Assembly (NCBI GenBank): GCA_027036355.1
Contig: JALVQZ010000171.1
Coordinates: 1-33,641 of the forward strand
DNA: 33,641 nucleotides
Direction: 5' to 3'
Source of the DNA: Acidimicrobiia bacterium
GTDB taxonomy: Bacteria; Actinomycetota; Acidimicrobiia; Spongiisociales; UBA5794
In this document: one piece after another, positions 4,714 through 14,409 of the stretch
How positions within the stretch are numbered: position 1 is the first letter of the stretch
Layout: the number at the start of each line of letters is the position of its first letter
Translations under genes and position numbers: made by a program
Notes under the pieces: generated by a model
What the model was told of the DNA's origin: nothing
Databases searched by the model: none
Seen by the model: only the letters and a program-made list of their open reading frames with translations

Positions 4714-5196
4714 TCACGTCGCCGGGTCGGTCGGCGCCGGCCGACCCGTGAGATGCTTGAACAGGTCGCGCCGCGACGGGTTCTCGACGTCGCTCTCCTC
4801 CCAGGCGGCGGTGACGAGGGCCGTGAACATCTCACCGGCCTCGACGGCCGCCGCCCTGGCGTCGTCCTGATCGGCGAAGATCGACACATCCGGGATCAGG
4901 TTGACCGACAGGTAGCGACCGAGTCCCTCGATCTCGTTGGCCAGCACTCGACGGGCGGCACCCGCCAGCCGGAACGTGGCGGGAAGCCGTTCCTCGGCGG
5001 CGACGTCGGTGGGGAAGATCATGGCGTTGACCGTCCATGGCGTCACGAGCACCACGATCGGGCCGGGCCCCGCCTCCCGGGCGGAGACCACCTCCACGCC
5101 CAGGTTCGGGTTCGACACCGGGTCGCCTTCGAACACGTCACGGTGGATCTCCCGGAAGCAGGCCTCAACCTCGCCGGCGAGCATGTCCACGTCCAT
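4714..5196 (-). CDS. hybE: [NiFe]-hydrogenase assembly chaperone, HybE/HupJ family
   Basis: This 160-residue protein matches the HybE/HupJ pattern: an N-terminal helix (EVEACFREIHRDVF), then N-P-x-L-x-V-E, the signature VVLVTPWTVNAMIFP, and a C-terminal region rich in Ala and acidic residues (DDARAAAVEAGEMFTAL). Family members act as cytoplasmic chaperones in assembly of Tat-exported [NiFe]-hydrogenases. Its place directly beside, and divergent from, the small-subunit gene supports the assignment. ATG 5196 is preferred because TACGAT (5205-5210) ends 8 nt upstream, a leaderless arrangement; the frame also extends to 5226. The last codons overlap an inverted repeat (4723-4748). Domain recognition is by eye; context makes it likely. 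Confidence 0.75.
   Translation of the reverse strand: MDVDMLAGEVEACFREIHRDVFEGDPVSNPNLGVEVVSAREAGPGPIVVLVTPWTVNAMIFPTDVAAEERLPATFRLAGAARRVLANEIEGLGRYLSVNLIPDVSIFADQDDARAAAVEAGEMFTALVTAAWEESDVENPSRRDLFKHLTGRPAPTDPAT
4723..4748. terminator. Inverted repeat between convergent genes
   Basis: CGGGTCGG and CCGACCCG form 8-bp perfect arms around a 10-nt loop that contains GGCGCC. It starts 16 nt after the stop of the HdeD-like gene and lies inside the 3' end of the convergent HybE gene. It could end plus-strand transcription. There is no U-tract, so this is a structure-only call. Confidence 0.35.
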
Positions 5197-5336
5197 CGCT
5201 CGACATCGTATCGGGCGCCGGACCACGGTCCGAAACCGTCACCACCGGCGATCGGGAAATAGGGCCGTTCGACCCCTTTCTCACGACCTCTCCGGTGCGA
5301 TTCTGGAACGGAAGGAGATCGCAGAGAGGAGGGGCC
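5197..5336. promoter_or_regulatory. Divergent control region, hybE / hydrogenase operon
   Basis: This 140-nt region holds the starts for the chaperone gene and the nine-gene hydrogenase operon. On the minus strand TACGAT (5205-5210) is a likely leaderless -10 box for hybE. An inverted repeat ACGGT-CCGAA-ACCGT (5225-5239) sits just upstream of that box and is a candidate operator. On the plus strand an AG-rich block with GAGAGGAGGGG (5324-5334) is the ribosome binding site for GTG 5337. I do not see a clear -35/-10 pair for the operon and could not identify a known regulator's box. Confidence 0.4.
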
Positions 5337-6485
5337 GTGCTGGAGACGAGTACCCGACAGGATTCCATCGTCGAATCCCTCCTCGCCCGGGGAGTGACCC
5401 GGCGCAGGTTCCTCGAGTTCTGCGCCGCGACCACCGCCATCCTCGCCTTGCCGGTCACCTACGAGACCCGGATCGCCGAGGCCCTCGAGACCGCCGACAA
5501 GCCCACCCTCGTGTGGCTGGAGTTCCAGGACTGCGCCGGCAACAGCGAATCGTTCCTCCGTGCGCGAGACCCGGGCGTGGCGGACATCGTCCTCGACATC
5601 CTGTCGGTCGACTACCACGAGACCATCATGGCCGCCGCGGGCCATCAGGCCGAAGCGGCCAGGGAAGAGGCCATCGCCCGCGGCGGCCACATCGTCGTCG
5701 TGGAGGGGTCCGTCCCGACCGCCGCCAACGGGGTGTACTGCACGATCGGCGGCAAGACCGCCCAGCAGATCCTCGCCGAGACGGTGAAGGGGGCGGCGGC
5801 GGTCATCAACACCGGCACCTGCTCGGCCTACGGCGGCATCCCTGCCGCGGCGCCCAACCCGACCGGCGCCGTCGGCGTTCCCGATCTGGTCTCGGGCGTG
5901 CCGGTCGTCAACCTCCCCGGCTGCCCCATGAACGTCGACAACCTGACCGCGACGATCGTCCACTTCCTCACCTTCGGGGCGCTACCCGCCACCGACGAGG
6001 TCGGCCGGCCGCTGTTCGCCTACGGGGAACGCATCCACGACCACTGCGAACGCCGGGCGCATTTCGACGCCGGGCAGTTCGCTCTCGAATGGGGCGACGA
6101 AGGCCACCGCAAGGGATGGTGTCTCTACAAGATGGGCTGCAAGGGCCCGAGCACCTTCCACAACTGCCCGTCGCAGCGATGGAACGGCGGAACGTCCTGG
6201 CCGATCGGAGCCGGTCACGGATGCGTCGGATGCTCCGAACCGTTCTTCTGGGACACGATGACGCCCATCTACGGCCGCCTGCCCGCCCCGCCGGGGTTCG
6301 GGGTCACGACGAGCCTGGAGAGGATCGGGGCGGGCATCGTCGGCCTCACCGCCCTCGGCTTCGGAGCCCACGGCGTCGCCAAGGCCATCCAGCGCAAACG
6401 GGTCGGCGACGCCGTTCAGACCCCCGTCGAGATCGATCGCGCCGCCCTCCGGAAGGGCCGTGACGAGGAAGGAGGCGAACGATGA
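5337..6485 (+). CDS. hupS: [NiFe]-hydrogenase small subunit, Tat-exported, membrane-anchored
   Basis: This 382-residue electron-transfer subunit carries FeS clusters that take electrons from the NiFe site of the large subunit. A Tat signal is visible (TRRRFLEFCAATTAILALP, 21-39), and a hydrophobic C-terminal helix (IGAGIVGLTALGFGAHGVAKAI) would anchor it in the membrane. Cluster motifs in order are DCAGNSES (65-72), GTCSAYGG, LPGCPMN, the distal-site HDHCERR and WCLYKMGCKGP, and the medial-site NCPSQRW with GHGCVGC. In the proximal motif the usual C-x-G-C is C66-A-G-N69, so one expected cluster ligand is replaced by Asn (codon 5541-5543). The start is GTG 5337, just after a strong purine-rich ribosome binding site. 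The stop overlaps the large-subunit ATG by 4 nt. The HydDB subgroup within group 1 cannot be settled by eye. Confidence 0.95.
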   Translation: MLETSTRQDSIVESLLARGVTRRRFLEFCAATTAILALPVTYETRIAEALETADKPTLVWLEFQDCAGNSESFLRARDPGVADIVLDILSVDYHETIMAAAGHQAEAAREEAIARGGHIVVVEGSVPTAANGVYCTIGGKTAQQILAETVKGAAAVINTGTCSAYGGIPAAAPNPTGAVGVPDLVSGVPVVNLPGCPMNVDNLTATIVHFLTFGALPATDEVGRPLFAYGERIHDHCERRAHFDAGQFALEWGDEGHRKGWCLYKMGCKGPSTFHNCPSQRWNGGTSWPIGAGHGCVGCSEPFFWDTMTPIYGRLPAPPGFGVTTSLERIGAGIVGLTALGFGAHGVAKAIQRKRVGDAVQTPVEIDRAALRKGRDEEGGER

Positions 6486-8200
6486 GCCGCATCGTCGTCG
6501 ACCCCATCACCCGTATCGAGGGTCACCTGCGCGTCGAAGCCGAGGTCGACGGCGGCAAGATCACCGACGCCTGGTCGTCGTGCACGATGTGGCGCGGCAT
6601 CGAGAAGATCCTCAACGGCCGCGATCCTCGAGACGCCTGGTACTTCACCCAGCGCATCTGCGGGGTGTGCACCACCGTCCACGCGATGGCGTCGGTCCGG
6701 GCGGTCGAGAACGCCCTCGGGATCGAACCGCCGCTGAACGCCCAGCTCATCAGGAACCTGATCCAGGCCAGCCAGTTCGTGCACGACCACGTCGTCCACT
6801 TCTACCACCTGCACGCCCTCGACTGGGTGGACGTCGTATCGGCCCTCGACGCCGACCCGGCGGCGACCGCCGATCTGGCCCAGTCGATCTCGGCGTACCC
6901 GCGGTCGAGCCCGACGTACTTCGCCGCGGTCAGGGACCGCCTGGCCAACTTCGTGTCGGCCGGACGTCTCGGACCGTTCACGAACGGCTATTGGGGCCAC
7001 CCGGCCTACCGGCTCCCTCCCGAAGGGAACCTGCTGGCGGTGAGCCACTACCTCGACGCCCTCGAGTTCCAGCGCAAGTACGTCGAGATCCACGCCATCT
7101 TGGGCGGGAAGAACCCGCACCTGCAGACCTACCTCGTCGGCGGCATGGCGGTGCCCATCGACCCCAACAGCCAGAACGCGATCAACGCCGGCACGATCGG
7201 CCGGCTCCGCGGGCTCCTGCAGGAGGGCCTCGACTTCGTCACCCAGGCGTACATCCCCGATCTGCTCCTCGTCGCCTCCTTCTACGAGGACTGGGCCGGG
7301 ATCGGCGGGGGCCTGGGCAACTACATGTCCTTCGGCGACTTCCCGCTGGGCAACAAGAACCCGTCGATGGATCCCGACAACCTGTTCCTGCCCCGAGGCA
7401 TCGTCCTCGGCAAGGACCTCGGCACGGTCCATCCGATGGCCCCGACCAAGATCGCCGAGTACATCTCCCATTCGTGGTACTCGTACGAGGAAGGCGACGA
7501 CGTCGCGTTGCCGCCGCTGGAGGGGGAGACGACCCCCAACTACACGGGGCCGGAGCCGCCCTACGAGTTCCTCGACACCGACGCCAAGTACTCGTGGCTC
7601 AAGTCGCCGCGCTACGACGACACGCCCGTCGAGGTGGGTCCGCTGGCGCGCATGCTCGTCGCCTACGCGTCCGGCCACGAGCGGGTCGTCGAGCTCGTCG
7701 ACACGGTCCTCACCAAGCTCGGCGTCGGCGCCGAAGCGCTCTTCTCTACCTTGGGACGCACCGCCGCCCGCGGCATCGAGACCCAGGTCCTCGCCGAGTA
7801 CTCGCTGGCGTTGCTCGACACGTTGGCGGCCAACATCGCCGGCGGGGACCTGCAGATCCACAACGGGGAGCTGTGGGATCCCAAGACATGGCCCGACGAG
7901 GCATCCGGCTTCGGGATGCACGAGGCTCCCCGCGGGTCGCTGTCGCACTGGGTGAAGATCGCCGGCGGGAAGGTCGCCAGCTACCAGGCGGTGGTCCCAT
8001 CGACGTGGAACGCCGGGCCACGGGACGCCAACGGCCGGCGCGGCGCCTACGAGGCGGCGCTGCTCGACACGCCGATGGCCGATCCCGCCCAGCCGCTGGA
8101 GATCCTCCGAACGGTGCATTCGTTCGACCCGTGCATGGCATGCGCGGCCCATGTCCTCGACAAGGACGGGAACCCGGTCGTGGAGGTGCAGGTGCTGTGA
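6482..8200 (+). CDS. hupL: [NiFe]-hydrogenase large (catalytic) subunit precursor
   Basis: This 572-residue protein holds the NiFe(CN)2CO centre that splits H2. The N-terminal L1 motif RICGVCTTVHA contributes Cys60 and Cys63. The C-terminal L2 motif FDPCMACAAH contributes Cys551 and Cys554. His557 is followed by a 15-residue tail (VLDKDGNPVVEVQVL), the expected peptide removed by the maturation protease after nickel insertion. Conserved stretches such as HDHVVHFYHLHALDW, LGPFTNGYWGHPAYR and ISHSWY are typical of periplasm-facing group 1 uptake enzymes and look HybC/HupL-like. ATG 6482 overlaps the preceding stop (ATGA), and its stop overlaps the cytochrome b start, so translation is probably coupled. 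No signal peptide is present, as expected for export with the small subunit. Confidence 0.97.
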   Translation: MSRIVVDPITRIEGHLRVEAEVDGGKITDAWSSCTMWRGIEKILNGRDPRDAWYFTQRICGVCTTVHAMASVRAVENALGIEPPLNAQLIRNLIQASQFVHDHVVHFYHLHALDWVDVVSALDADPAATADLAQSISAYPRSSPTYFAAVRDRLANFVSAGRLGPFTNGYWGHPAYRLPPEGNLLAVSHYLDALEFQRKYVEIHAILGGKNPHLQTYLVGGMAVPIDPNSQNAINAGTIGRLRGLLQEGLDFVTQAYIPDLLLVASFYEDWAGIGGGLGNYMSFGDFPLGNKNPSMDPDNLFLPRGIVLGKDLGTVHPMAPTKIAEYISHSWYSYEEGDDVALPPLEGETTPNYTGPEPPYEFLDTDAKYSWLKSPRYDDTPVEVGPLARMLVAYASGHERVVELVDTVLTKLGVGAEALFSTLGRTAARGIETQVLAEYSLALLDTLAANIAGGDLQIHNGELWDPKTWPDEASGFGMHEAPRGSLSHWVKIAGGKVASYQAVVPSTWNAGPRDANGRRGAYEAALLDTPMADPAQPLEILRTVHSFDPCMACAAHVLDKDGNPVVEVQVL

Positions 8201-8916
8201 CGACGACCCCGCGAGAACGCGCCGAAGCCGCGGCGAGGGAGGACCCGCTCCAGGTCGTCGCCACCGCCGGGTGCGTCACCGTTCGCGTGTGGCAGCTCCC
8301 GGTCCGGGTCATCCACTGGACGATCTTCTCGTCGGTCGTGGTCCTGTCCCTCACCGGGTTCTACATCGGGACGCCGTACCTGTCGGTGGGATCGGACCCA
8401 CGGTTCGTGATGGGGTGGGCGCGGGCCGCCCACAACCTGGCGGCGTTCGTGTTCATCGCCGCCATCGTCGCCCGGATCATCTGGGCGTTCAGCGGCAACA
8501 AGTGGTCCCGCTGGGACCAGTTCATCCCCATCTCCAAGGCGCGCCGGGAGAACGCCTGGGCCGGGTTCAAGTACTACACGTTCCTGTCGCGGACACCGCC
8601 GGCCGGCGCCGGTCACAACGCACTGGCCGGCTCGACGTACCTGGTCGTCCTGGTGATGTTCCTCGTCCAGATCTTCACGGGCTTGGCGCTCCTGTCCCTC
8701 GAATCGGGAGGGGCCCTCGCCTCGATCTCGGGCTGGGTGTTCGCGGTCCTGCCGATCCCGTGGATCCGGTTCGTACACCATCTCATCATGTGGATGACCT
8801 GGGGGTTCGTCATCCACCACGTCTACTCGGCGGTCCTGATGGACACCGAGGAGAAGACCGGCCTGATCTCGTCCATCTTCACCGGCTGGAAGCGCCTCCC
8901 CGCCGACCGTCTATGA
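8197..8916 (+). CDS. hupC: Hydrogenase cytochrome b subunit (HyaC/HupC type)
   Basis: This 239-residue integral membrane cytochrome would carry electrons from the hydrogenase small subunit to quinone. It has four main transmembrane helices with His residues at heme-ligand positions: VRVIHWTIFSSVVVLSL, ARAAHNLAAFVFIAAI, RFVHHLIMWMTWGFVIHH. The N-terminal 30 residues are hydrophilic and cytoplasmic in the usual topology. The start is GTG 8197, overlapping the large-subunit stop (GTGA). Its stop overlaps the ATG of the protease gene. Order small-large-cytochrome b is the classic layout for respiratory uptake hydrogenases. The assignment is secure; which hemes are bound is by family analogy. Confidence 0.92.
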   Translation: MTTTPRERAEAAAREDPLQVVATAGCVTVRVWQLPVRVIHWTIFSSVVVLSLTGFYIGTPYLSVGSDPRFVMGWARAAHNLAAFVFIAAIVARIIWAFSGNKWSRWDQFIPISKARRENAWAGFKYYTFLSRTPPAGAGHNALAGSTYLVVLVMFLVQIFTGLALLSLESGGALASISGWVFAVLPIPWIRFVHHLIMWMTWGFVIHHVYSAVLMDTEEKTGLISSIFTGWKRLPADRL

Positions 8917-9395
8917 CCGCGCCGTTCCTCGTCCTCGGGCTCGGCAACGAGCTGTTCACCGACGAAGGCGTCGGGGTCGTCGCCGCGAGGGCCTTCGCCG
9001 CACGGCAGATCCCCGAGGTCGACGTCGTGGACGGCGGCACGCTGGGCATCGCCCTGCTGCCGACCGTCGTCGACCGCGAGGCGGTGCTCGTCTTCGACGC
9101 GGTCGTGGCCGACGACGCGACCCCCGGCGAGGTCGTGGTCCTCGCAGACGGCGAGGTTCGCCAGGGTCGTCGTGCCCTGTACTCGGCGCATCAGCTCGGG
9201 ATCGCCGAGGTCCTCGCCGCCGCCGATCTCGCCGGCGCCCCGGTACCGCGGGTGGCCGCCGTCGGGATGGTGCCCTATTCGCTCGACACCGGCTACGGCA
9301 TCTCGCCCGAGGCATCGGCCCGGGTCGAAGCGATGGTCGATCGGGGAGTGGAGATCGTCGAACGATGGCGACGGGAGGTGACGGTCGATGCATGA
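8913..9395 (+). CDS. hupD: Hydrogenase maturation endopeptidase (HybD/HyaD family)
   Basis: This 160-residue protease removes the C-terminal peptide of the large subunit after nickel is inserted. The opening LVLGLGNELFTDEGVGV carries the conserved nickel-sensing Glu in the DEG motif. DGGTLG (second acidic ligand) and SAHQLG (His ligand) complete the metal-binding triad known for HybD. ATG 8913 overlaps the cytochrome b stop, and the gene runs 8 nt into hypA. It sits in the same transcript as its substrate. Family and role are clear. Confidence 0.93.
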   Translation: MTAPFLVLGLGNELFTDEGVGVVAARAFAARQIPEVDVVDGGTLGIALLPTVVDREAVLVFDAVVADDATPGEVVVLADGEVRQGRRALYSAHQLGIAEVLAAADLAGAPVPRVAAVGMVPYSLDTGYGISPEASARVEAMVDRGVEIVERWRREVTVDA

Positions 9396-9711
9396 GCGCG
9401 CCCCCGTCGGCACGGCCGCGGCGCGGCTGCTGGCAGAGATCGACCCGTCGGATCCTCCGGCGAGCATCACCGTCGCTCTCGCCCCCGATGTGATGGCCGA
9501 CATCGCCCAGGATGCGTGGGCGTCGGCGACCCACGGCACGGTCCTGGAGACCGTCGAGGTGGAATGGGTCGTCCGCTACCCGCTGCTGGCCTGTCTCGAC
9601 TGCGGGGTCGAGTACGAAGGGGAGAAGCTCGACCGCTGCCCGACGTGCGGCGGGGACGGGCTCATCGTCGAGGACGTGCCGATCGCCGAGGTGCTCCCAT
9701 GGAGGTCCTAG
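9388..9711 (+). CDS. hypA: Hydrogenase nickel incorporation protein HypA
   Basis: This 107-residue protein should deliver Ni to the large subunit. It begins MHE, giving the nickel-binding His2 that fixes the start at ATG 9388. A C-terminal zinc site is formed by CLDC and CPTC, 16 residues apart. It overlaps the protease gene by 8 nt and hypF by 13 nt. Its usual partner, the GTPase HypB, is not encoded next to it or anywhere in this window, which is unusual for such a complete hyp set. The length is slightly under the typical 113 or so residues. Confidence 0.92.
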   Translation: MHERAPVGTAAARLLAEIDPSDPPASITVALAPDVMADIAQDAWASATHGTVLETVEVEWVVRYPLLACLDCGVEYEGEKLDRCPTCGGDGLIVEDVPIAEVLPWRS

Positions 9712-11966
9712 CCGGCCCCACGGCGCGCCTGCGGATCACCGTCACCGGGGTGGTCCAAGGGGTCGGCTTCCGGCCGTTCGTCCACCAGATCGCCACCGAG
9801 CTCGGACTCGCCGGGTTCGTCGGCAACGACGCCGACGGCGTCTTCATCGAGGTCGAAGGCGACCCCGGCTCCGTCGAGCGGTTCGTGTCGAGGCTCGAGA
9901 CGGACGCTCCGCCCCTCAGCCGGATCGAACGAGTCCGGACCATTCCCATCGACGTGGCCGGCGAAGGAACGTTCCGGATCGTCGCCAGCCGGCCCGCTCC
10001 GACCGGCACCGCCTTGGTCGCTCCGGACCTGACGGTCTGCGACGAGTGCGTGGCCGAGCTCGAGGATCCCGCCGACCGCCGGTTCGGCTATCCGTTCATC
10101 AACTGCACCGACTGCGGGCCGAGGTTCACGATCACGCTCCGTACCCCCTACGACCGGCCGGACACCACGATGGCAGCGTTCGACATGTGTCCGTCGTGCG
10201 CCGCGGAATACGACGACCCGGCGGATCGTCGTTTCCATGCTCAACCCAACGCGTGTCCGGCGTGCGGCCCGCGGGTCTGGCTCGAGACGATCGTTGGCGA
10301 GATCCCTCACGGTGACGGCATCGACGCCGCCCGCACGCTCGTCCGCTCCGGGGCGGTCGTCGCCATCAAGGGTCTGGGAGGGTTCCATCTGGCCTGCGAC
10401 GCCCGCTCCCGGTCGGCGGTGGCCGCGCTGCGCGAGCGCAAGGGCCGTGTCGACAAGCCCTTCGCCGTGATGGCTGCGGACCTGTCCACGGCCCGCTCCA
10501 TCGTGTTCGTCGACCCGGCCGAAGCGTCGCTGCTCACCTCCCGGGAACGCCCCATCGTGCTCCTGCGGAAGCGTCCTGGCGTCCACGTGTCGGATCTCGT
10601 CGCTCCCGGCAACGGGTACCTCGGGGTGATGTTGCCCTACACGCCGCTGCACCGGCTCCTCCTCGAACCGGGCGACGTGTGGGTGATGACATCGGGCAAC
10701 CGCTCCCAGGAGCCCATCGCCTACCGCAACGACGAAGCGCGGGAGCGTCTCGCCGATCTGGCCGACGCCTTCGTGATGCACGACCGCGACATCCACGTTC
10801 CGGTCGACGATTCGGTGGTGCGGATCCTCGATGGCGCCGAGCTGCCCATCCGCCGATCCCGAGGCTACGCCCCCTACCCGATCGCGCTGCCCATGGACGT
10901 CCCGCCGTTGCTGGCCACCGGCGGTGAGTTGAAGGCGACGTTCTGTCTCGCCGCCGGGCGGCACGGGTTCATGAGCCAGCACATCGGCGACATGGAGAAC
11001 CTCGAGACCCTCGATGCCTTCGGCCGAGCCGTCGAGCACATGCGATCCCTGTTCCGGATCGAGCCGGACCTGTACGCCACCGATCTGCATCCCGGCTACC
11101 TGTCGGGGGCCTGGGCCGAGCGTGTCGCCGGCGGCCGCCCGGTCGTCAGGGTCCAGCATCACCACGCCCACATCGCGTCGGTCATGGCCGAGCATCGGGT
11201 CACCGAACCGGTGATCGGCTTCAGTTTCGACGGCACCGGCTACGGCACCGACGGAACGATCTGGGGGGGTGAGGTCCTGATCGCCGATCTCGCCGAGGCG
11301 GAGCGAGCCGCTCATCTGCGTCCCGTCCCCCTCGCCGGAGGCGACCGCACGGTCCGCCGCCCCTACCGGATGGCCCTCGCCCACCTGTGGGCCGCCGGGA
11401 TCGCCTGGGAGCCGGGCATCGCCGCGGTCGAAGCCTGCCCCGCCGCCGAGCGCCGCGTCCTGAGGACGCAGCTGGAGCGGGGGCTCAACACGGTGCCGAC
11501 CTCGTCGATGGGTCGCCTCTTCGACGCCGTGTCCTCCCTCGCCGGGGTCTGTCACCAGGCGACGTACGAAGCCCAGGCCGCCATCGAGCTGGAAGCCCTC
11601 GTCGACGGACACGCTCGGGGCAGCTACCGGTTCGACCTCGACGGCGCGACCATCGACCCCGCCCCCGTCCTGCGGGCGCTCCTCGCCGACCTGGACGACG
11701 GCGTCCCCGTCCCGGTGGTCGCGTCCCGCTTCCACCGCTCGATCGCCGAGATGATCGGCGACGTCGCCGGGGACCTCCGGACGCGGACCGGACTCGGTAC
11801 GGTTGGACTGAGCGGCGGCGTGTTCCAGAACGCAACGCTGACGACGATGACACGACGACGACTGGAACGGGACGGCTTCACCGTCCTCACCCACAGGCTC
11901 GTTCCACCCAACGACGGTGGATTGGCCTTGGGTCAAGCGGTGATCGCGGCAACGAGAGCGAGGTGA
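9699..11966 (+). CDS. hypF: Carbamoyltransferase HypF
   Basis: This 755-residue enzyme uses carbamoyl phosphate and ATP to make carbamoyl adenylate and transfers the carbamoyl group to the C-terminal Cys of HypE, the source of the CN ligands. Domains in order: acylphosphatase (about 9-95, VVQGVGFRPFVHQ), four CxxC zinc-binding pairs starting at Cys114 (CDEC, CTDC, CPSC, CPAC), a YrdC-like domain (about 205-380), and a Kae1-like domain with HHHAHIASVMAEH near residue 485 and FSFDGTGYGTDG. ATG 9699 lies inside hypA, and homology begins about 10 residues later. Full length for the family, with no frame damage. Confidence 0.96.
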   Translation: MEVLAGPTARLRITVTGVVQGVGFRPFVHQIATELGLAGFVGNDADGVFIEVEGDPGSVERFVSRLETDAPPLSRIERVRTIPIDVAGEGTFRIVASRPAPTGTALVAPDLTVCDECVAELEDPADRRFGYPFINCTDCGPRFTITLRTPYDRPDTTMAAFDMCPSCAAEYDDPADRRFHAQPNACPACGPRVWLETIVGEIPHGDGIDAARTLVRSGAVVAIKGLGGFHLACDARSRSAVAALRERKGRVDKPFAVMAADLSTARSIVFVDPAEASLLTSRERPIVLLRKRPGVHVSDLVAPGNGYLGVMLPYTPLHRLLLEPGDVWVMTSGNRSQEPIAYRNDEARERLADLADAFVMHDRDIHVPVDDSVVRILDGAELPIRRSRGYAPYPIALPMDVPPLLATGGELKATFCLAAGRHGFMSQHIGDMENLETLDAFGRAVEHMRSLFRIEPDLYATDLHPGYLSGAWAERVAGGRPVVRVQHHHAHIASVMAEHRVTEPVIGFSFDGTGYGTDGTIWGGEVLIADLAEAERAAHLRPVPLAGGDRTVRRPYRMALAHLWAAGIAWEPGIAAVEACPAAERRVLRTQLERGLNTVPTSSMGRLFDAVSSLAGVCHQATYEAQAAIELEALVDGHARGSYRFDLDGATIDPAPVLRALLADLDDGVPVPVVASRFHRSIAEMIGDVAGDLRTRTGLGTVGLSGGVFQNATLTTMTRRRLERDGFTVLTHRLVPPNDGGLALGQAVIAATRAR

Positions 11967-11972
11967 TCGACG

Positions 11973-12266
11973 ATGTGTCTCGGCATCCCCGGGAAGGTGA
12001 TCGAGATCTCCGGTGAAGGGTTCATGCGCACCGGCAAGATCGACTTCGACGGGATCGTCAAGGAGGTGTCGCTCGCCTACGTGCCCGAGATCGAGGTCGG
12101 CGACTACGCCATCGTGCACGTCGGCTTCGCCATCACCCAGCTCGACGAGGAGTCGGCCCAAGAGACCTTGGCGCTCCTCCGCCGGCTCGACGTCGTCGAC
12201 GAGGAACTCGACCCGGAGGTCGCGCTCGCCGCGGAGCGGCGCCGTGCGGGAGGTGACACACCGTGA
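11973..12266 (+). CDS. hypC: HypC/HybG hydrogenase assembly chaperone
   Basis: This 97-residue protein begins [12 protein letters not shown], with the essential Cys2 that holds the Fe(CN)2CO unit together with Hyp[11 protein letters not shown] and [13 protein letters not shown] are the usual beta-barrel strands, and [14 protein letters not shown] is the C-terminal helix. It starts 6 nt after hypF, and its stop overlaps the hypD GTG (GTGA). One copy is present, so it probably serves both the HypD complex and as chaperone to the large-subunit precursor, with the HybE-like protein as a further assembly factor. Confidence 0.95.
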
Positions 12267-13366
12267 AGTACCTCGACGAGTTCCGCGACCCGGAGGTCGC
12301 CCTGCGTCTCATCGACGAGATCAACGAGCTGGCCAGCCGCCGGTGGGTCCTGATGGAGGTGTGCGGCGGCCAGACCCACTCCATCATCCGCAACGGCATC
12401 GACCGGCTCCTGCCCGACAGCGTCGAGATGGTGCACGGTCCGGGATGTCCGGTGTGCGTGACGCCGCTGGACACCATCGACAAGGCCCTGGCGATCGCCG
12501 CCCGCGACGACGTCATCTTCTGCTCGTTCGGCGACATGCTGAGGGTGCCGGGCTCCGACGAGGACCTGTTCCAGGTCAAGGGCGGCGGCGGCGACATCCG
12601 CGTCGTCTACTCGCCGACCGATGCCCTCCAGATCGCCAGGGAGAACCCCGACGAGGAGGTCGTGTTCTTCGGGATCGGGTTCGAGACCACGGCACCGGCC
12701 AACGCCATGGCGGTCTACCAAGCCAAGCAGGAGGGCCTGGAGAACTTCTCGATGCTGGTCTCGCACGTGCTGGTCCCCCCGGCGATGCGAGCGATCCTCG
12801 ACTCACCGACCAACCGCGTCCAGGCGTTCCTCGCCGCCGGCCACGTCTGTTCGGTGATGGGCTACGAGGAGTACTTCGCCATCGCCCAGGAATACGGCAC
12901 GCCGATCGTCGTCACCGGCTTCGAACCCCTCGACCTCCTGTCGGGCATCAAAGCCGCGATCACCCAGCTCGAGGAGGGGCGAGCCACCGTCGAGAACGCC
13001 TACCAACGAGCGGTGCGGCGGGAAGGCAACGTCCCGGCCAAGCAGATGATCGCCGACGTGTTCACGACCACCGATCGGAACTGGCGAGGCATCGGTCCGA
13101 TCCCGGCCTCGGGATGGGAGTTGTCGGAGCGGTACCGCGATTTCGACGCCGCCGCCCGGTTCCCCATCGGCGACATCGACACGAAGGAGTCGCCGCTGTG
13201 CCACGCCGGAGAGGTCCTCCAAGGCACCCGTAAACCGGACGAGTGCCCGGCGTTCGGCAAGGAATGCACACCGAGGACGCCTCTCGGAGCGCTGATGGTC
13301 TCGAGCGAGGGGGCCTGCGCCGCCTACTACCAGTACGGACGCTTCGCGAAGGCGGCGTCGTCATGA
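12263..13366 (+). CDS. hypD: Hydrogenase formation protein HypD
   Basis: This 367-residue FeS protein assembles the Fe(CN)2CO centre on the HypC-HypD scaffold. Motifs are [43 protein letters not shown] and a Cys-containing C-terminus ([13 protein letters not shown], then [10 protein letters not shown]) that binds the [4Fe-4S] cluster. The start is GTG 12263, overlapping the hypC stop; homology from [13 protein letters not shown] supports it. The hypE ATG overlaps its stop. Normal length and intact. Confidence 0.96.
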
Positions 13367-14409
13367 CGATCGACGGCTGGACCTGCCCGATACCCCTTCG
13401 CGACCAGCCCAACGTCGTGCTCGGACACGGCGGTGGCGGCAAGCTCGGCAACGAGCTGATCCAGCACCTGTTCCTGCCCGCCTTCGACGACGTCCACCTC
13501 CGGGACCTGGCCGACGCCGCCGCCGTGGAGTTGCCGCCGGGCCGAGTGGCCATGTCGACGGATTCGTTCGTGGTCCGGCCGCTGTTCTTCCCCGGCGGCG
13601 ACATCGGCGAGCTGGCGGTGAACGGCACCGTCAACGACGTCGCGATGCGAGGAGCGACGCCCCGGTATCTGTCGGTGGCGTTCATCCTGGAGGAGGGGCT
13701 CCCGCTGGCGACGCTGGCCCGCATCGTCGCGTCGATGGCGGAAGCCGCCAAACGAGCCGGAGTGGGTCTGGTCACCGGCGACACGAAGGTCGTCGACAAG
13801 GGCCACGGTGACGGGGTGTACGTCAACACGACCGGGATCGGGGTCATCCCCGACGGCGTCGACATCTCCCCGGACCGGGTGCGCCCGGGCGACGTGGCCA
13901 TCGTGTCTGGCACCATCGCGGATCACGGGATGGCGATCATGAGCGTGCGGGAAGGCCTCGGGTTCGAATCGGACATCGTGTCGGACACCGCCGCCCTCAA
14001 CGGCCTCGTCGCGGACCTCCTCGCCGCGGGCATCGACGTGCATGCGCTGCGCGACCCGACCCGCGGCGGCGTGGCGTCCACCCTCAACGAGATCGCCTCG
14101 GCATCCGATACGGGGATCGTCGTGGACGAGCGGGCGCTCCCGGTCCGCCGTCCGGTGGCGTCGGCGTGCGAGATGCTGGGCATGGACCCGATGTACGTCG
14201 CCAACGAGGGCAAGCTCATCGCGTTCGTCCCTGCCGCGCAGGCCGAGGCGGCCTTGGCGACGATGCAGGCGAATCCGCTCGGCACCGAAGCGGCCGTGAT
14301 CGCCGAGGTCGTCGCCGACCACCCCGGCATGGTGGTCGGGACGACCCCGCTCGGGGCGACCAGGGTCATCGACACCCAGGTCGGCCAGCAGCTCCCCCGC
14401 ATCTGCTGA
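13363..14409 (+). CDS. hypE: Hydrogenase maturation protein HypE
   Basis: This 348-residue AIR-synthase-like ATPase dehydrates its C-terminal thiocarboxamide to thiocyanate, the cyanide donor for the NiFe site. The protein ends PRIC, so the required C-terminal Cys is present. N-terminal [14 protein letters not shown] and the segments [18 protein letters not shown] and DPTRGGVA are family signatures. ATG 13363 overlaps the hypD stop. It is the last gene of the nine-gene operon, ending 21 nt before the convergent stop of the next gene. No clear terminator is seen there. Confidence 0.96.

Follow-up and report, generated by a model that had tools for sequence, protein, structure and literature searches.

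The [NiFe]-hydrogenase small subunit encoded in the window, by which we mean the whole 33,641-nucleotide stretch analysed (contig JALVQZ010000171.1 of an Acidimicrobiia bacterium), carries asparagine in place of the second cysteine of its proximal cluster motif. This replacement is real but not unusual, being an already described kind of swap. A sequence-only reading of the same DNA had taken the enzyme for a HybO/HupS type bearing an unusual residue; in fact, it belongs to a broad clade whose members normally have Asn or Asp at this position. It is probably a group 1f-type, Tat-exported uptake hydrogenase that delivers electrons through cytochrome b to quinone, with N69 serving as an oxygen ligand of the proximal cluster. 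We infer the group 1f label, the cluster type, the redox effect and the electron route.

The small-subunit gene and its operon

The features on which the analysis draws are as follows.

4714-5226, minus strand: HybE-like hydrogenase assembly chaperone (PF11939, 73 bits, cut-off 25)
5337-6485, plus strand: [NiFe]-hydrogenase small subunit, putatively group 1f-type, hyaS/hupS-like (TIGR00391, PF01058, PF14720)
5532-5543, plus strand: proximal cluster motif C66-A-G-N69 (sequence, alignment to solved structures, homologue table)
5820-5822, plus strand: C162, third proximal ligand (alignment; invariant in 36 relatives)
5922-5924, plus strand: C196, fourth proximal ligand (alignment; invariant in 36 relatives)
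6482-8200, plus strand: large subunit (PF00374, 761 bits; PDB alignment)
8197-8916, plus strand: cytochrome b subunit, quinone-reducing membrane anchor (PF01292 Ni_hydr_CYTB, 98 bits, cut-off 30.1)
8913-9395, plus strand: HyaD/HybD-type maturation protease (TIGR00072 over cut-off; PF01750)
9388-9711, plus strand: short HypA-like nickel chaperone (PF01155, 30.1 bits, cut-off 28.9; under the TIGR00100 cut-off)
9705-14409, plus strand: hypF, hypC, hypD and hypE (TIGR00143, TIGR00074, TIGR00075 and TIGR02124, all over cut-off)

The small subunit starts with GTG and comprises 382 aa, and in the profile search it scored 420 bits against TIGR00391 (cut-off 179.5), with PF01058 and PF14720 both matching as well. 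It bears the Tat motif TRRRFLEF, of which R22, R23 and F25 are invariant in the family alignment, and a hydrophobic helix near the C-terminus, predicted at residues 327-357 by a low-confidence AlphaFold2 model (mean pLDDT 65.9, low over 230-278) that was used for this helix only. Together with the cytochrome b gene in the operon, the Tat motif bears out the earlier description of a Tat-exported enzyme with a cytochrome b partner.

Codons 5532-5543 read TGC GCC GGC AAC, where TGC at 5532-5534 encodes C66 and AAC at 5541-5543 encodes N69. In a phmmer comparison with solved hydrogenases, N69 aligns gap-free with the later of the two Cys in the proximal C-x-x-C motif, in agreement with the sequence-only reading, which had also held the other cluster ligands to be intact. 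Indeed this alignment retains C66, C162 and C196 as well as every medial and distal ligand, with H234, C237, C262 and C268 in place in the distal set and C277, C296 and C299 in the medial set, the sets being named by established hydrogenase numbering. The alignment check called for in that reading brought no other Cys into the N69 ligand position, and no substitute Cys was found nearby in the aligned small subunit.

The large subunit has the L1 motif RICGVC, the L2 motif DPCMAC and a C-terminal peptide after the His; its H213 aligns in the PDB comparison with H229 of Hyd-5, the His that contacts the proximal cluster. The HybE-like gene lies upstream of the small-subunit gene in divergent orientation, outside the operon. 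The earlier description of the maturation genes as normal calls for a caveat, as HypA is short (107 aa, with the MHE N-terminus and two CxxC retained) and no hypB was detected: nothing over the hypB family cut-off was found in the source genome, of 97.7% completeness, or in eight relatives from the order that bear a hydrogenase, two of them estimated to be 100% complete. The best weak match, judged by eye from its sequence, reads as a MeaB/ArgK-type GTPase next to an enoyl-CoA hydratase. Nickel insertion may proceed without HypB here. Five matches to the COX1 family (heme-copper oxidase) were found in the genome.

Asparagine, aspartate and cysteine among homologues

Peptide patterns that left out the N69 column served to retrieve homologues from GTDB-based genomes, to which relatives of the host genome were added; the genome scan comprised the best 80 loci, and the counts hold for proteins close to this one rather than for all hydrogenases. 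Among the first 91 loci, the window itself and some duplicates being counted, Asp occupied the column 41 times, Asn 39 times and Cys 11 times, and in the 118 deduplicated small subunits used for the tree the corresponding numbers were 42, 36 and 40. The clade containing the window's enzyme has 84 rows (42 Asp, 34 Asn, 8 Cys) and spans Actinomycetota, Chloroflexota, Nitrospirota, Acidobacteriota, Deferribacterota, Desulfuromonadales/Geobacteraceae and others, also holding Chloroflexaceae and one Frankiaceae MAG. The eight Cys enzymes of this clade group together as one clade, whereas about nine changes between Asn and Asp are needed, of which supported branches force at least seven. The tree behind this estimate was built with the column masked; it came from a quick search, with SH-aLRT as the sole branch support, and some of its long branches are uncertain. 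The codons at the column are AAC/AAT, GAC/GAT and TGC/TGT, and a single base separates Asn from Asp, as would suit ligands that are nearly equivalent. Pelotalea chapellei (L068) is one of the Asn bearers.

Many sites in both subunits showed a raw association with the choice of Asn or Asp, but none of the associations listed held over seven independent branch pairs. One candidate correlate, the occurrence of Leu or Pro just behind the proximal-cluster His (positions 213-214 of the large subunit), was rejected as following phylogeny; the Geobacteraceae Asn enzymes have Pro there, and Cys enzymes have either.

Two further observations concern single sequences or sites. A homologue of the same phylum (L099) has the motif D-S-G-C, with Asp at the first proximal Cys and not the second. 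The window's small subunit has an extra Cys, C135 (in GVYC, codon 5739-5741), which matches no known cluster ligand; most clade members and HoxK share it, and many Desulfuromonadales/Geobacteraceae sequences have Gly in this column.

Relation to known hydrogenase groups

In Roseiflexus, Geobacter and Frankia, group 1f enzymes have been reported with Asn or Asp in place of the same Cys (Mohammadi et al., 2017; PMC5364354), as seen at the second proximal ligand of the window's enzyme. Its clade-mates from Geobacteraceae, Chloroflexaceae and Frankiaceae have small subunits about 56-68% identical to it, and it falls with them in the clade of 84 on the 118-row tree, whose rows include no HydDB-labelled reference, as would be expected of a group 1f enzyme. 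The Tat motif, the predicted C-terminal helix and the cytochrome b partner are likewise group 1f traits. The enzyme differs from described group 1f members in its host, which belongs to an uncultured Acidimicrobiia family, and in the lack of a detectable hypB. HydDB describes group 1f as oxygen-protecting with its role unresolved, and the text of that paper does not give proximal ligands (PMC5037454).

On sequence comparison, a non-Cys residue occupies this position in at least three hydrogenase groups. Asn has been noted in group 2a and in the HupS of mesophilic verrucomicrobia (PMC5364354), and a Cys-to-Asn substitution in N. punctiforme and a Cys-to-Asp substitution in G. metalloreducens have been listed (Yonemoto et al., 2014; PMC4070099). 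In our alignment, the group 2a enzyme Huc of Mycobacterium (7uur) has Asn in the same column, in the motif CSGNT; Asn is also found there in Huc homologues carried on plasmids of Mesorhizobium and Thermus. However, the group 2a plasmid homologues are only about 33% identical to the window's small subunit, the group 2a rows of the tree (L119 and L124) stand on a separate long branch, and cyanobacterial HupS and Huc lack the Tat signal found here; the enzyme therefore falls outside group 2a, and its Asn is of separate origin. For group 1h, the claim of the earlier reading that Asp stands in this column proved correct, as HofK (5aa5) and an actinobacterial homologue (L125) both read CDGD, Asp being a non-Cys oxygen ligand. 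HofK is about 36% identical to the window's small subunit, and group 1h has neither a Tat signal nor a membrane helix at the C-terminus (PMC5364354), unlike the present enzyme, which with its Tat motif and its CAGN is not a group 1h member. The O2-tolerant membrane-bound hydrogenases of group 1d (HoxK) share its fold, Tat export and membrane-bound uptake role, but HoxK of Cupriavidus pHG1 (L120) has the six-Cys pattern of a proximal 4Fe-3S cluster, and in the window's enzyme A67 and G167 occupy the positions of the extra Cys, which places it outside that type.

A putative oxygen ligand and its alternatives

In the proposed scheme, H2 would be split at the [NiFe] site of a periplasm-facing respiratory uptake hydrogenase, and electrons would pass from a proximal cluster held by three Cys and N69 to the medial [3Fe-4S] cluster, the distal His/3Cys [4Fe-4S] cluster and cytochrome b, which would hand them to the quinone pool. 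N69 would bind the fourth iron of a proximal [4Fe-4S] cluster through oxygen, weakly and possibly in a labile manner, in the role that Asp has in sister enzymes, and would shift the cluster potential without abolishing it. Because Asn and Asp were exchanged repeatedly, they would appear to do the same job, most simply that of ligating a [4Fe-4S] cluster through oxygen. The Asp of group 1h has been reported to coordinate a proximal [4Fe-4S] cluster (PMC7174314), and the engineered C81N and C81D variants of Alteromonas HynSL stay active (PMC4070099). A literature search for "3Cys1Asn" ligation gave no match, and the literature yielded no spectroscopic study of a group 1f enzyme.

The main counter-evidence to this scheme comes from Huc, which contains three [3Fe-4S] clusters, the proximal one being established by cryo-EM and EPR (PMC10017518) with Asn in the same column, so that Asn need not hold a fourth iron. 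It is conceivable, at roughly one chance in three by our judgement, that the same family has a non-ligating Asn and a Huc-like proximal [3Fe-4S] cluster of higher potential, biased to uptake at low H2, with Asp relatives keeping [4Fe-4S]. Aerobic and sub-atmospheric H2 oxidation has been associated with organisms bearing group 1f enzymes, among which Acidobacterium ailaaui is reported to take H2 to sub-atmospheric levels (PMC6776052), which would suit such a cluster; yet frequent exchange of Asn and Asp in close relatives is less expected if the residue alters cluster nuclearity, and a review gives the proximal [4Fe-4S] cluster of Nostoc HupS, which has the same Asn, as ligated by one Asn and three Cys (PMC6616624). 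That Asn is a specific O2-tolerance adaptation, setting the enzyme apart from its Asp and Cys relatives, appears unlikely to us. Group 1h Asp enzymes are O2-insensitive, and a contribution by Asp has been proposed (PMC5364354, PMC7174314), but both Asn and Asp occur in Geobacteraceae and other lineages regarded as anaerobic, and the absence of any other site tracking Asn versus Asp in either subunit, over only seven independent pairs, also speaks against it.

It could further be supposed, since the residue deviates from the textbook motif, that mutation or misassembly removed a Cys codon, leaving an impaired enzyme. However, a congener (96% identical), related genera and other families of the order carry Asn, so that the residue is neither an error nor a sign of decay, as the sequence-only reading had already judged with regard to decay. 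Asn recurs in other phyla in independent assemblies, which refute this explanation, the remaining ligands and the operon are intact, and Cys to Asn takes at least two base changes; we consider it next to impossible.

The Asn/Asp substitution itself is already published; new from the survey is the repeated swapping of Asn and Asp within one hydrogenase clade, the Cys enzymes being confined to a single branch. A bolder and rather improbable view is that this toggle in group 1f acts as a natural redox switch by a single base change, in which Asn would give a high-potential, Huc-like proximal [3Fe-4S] cluster suited to trace H2 and Asp a [4Fe-4S] cluster of lower potential. The two Asn precedents conflict, Huc having [3Fe-4S] and Nostoc HupS [4Fe-4S]; the clade provides a natural variant set for testing how one ligand sets the cluster type, the potential and the O2 response of a hydrogenase.
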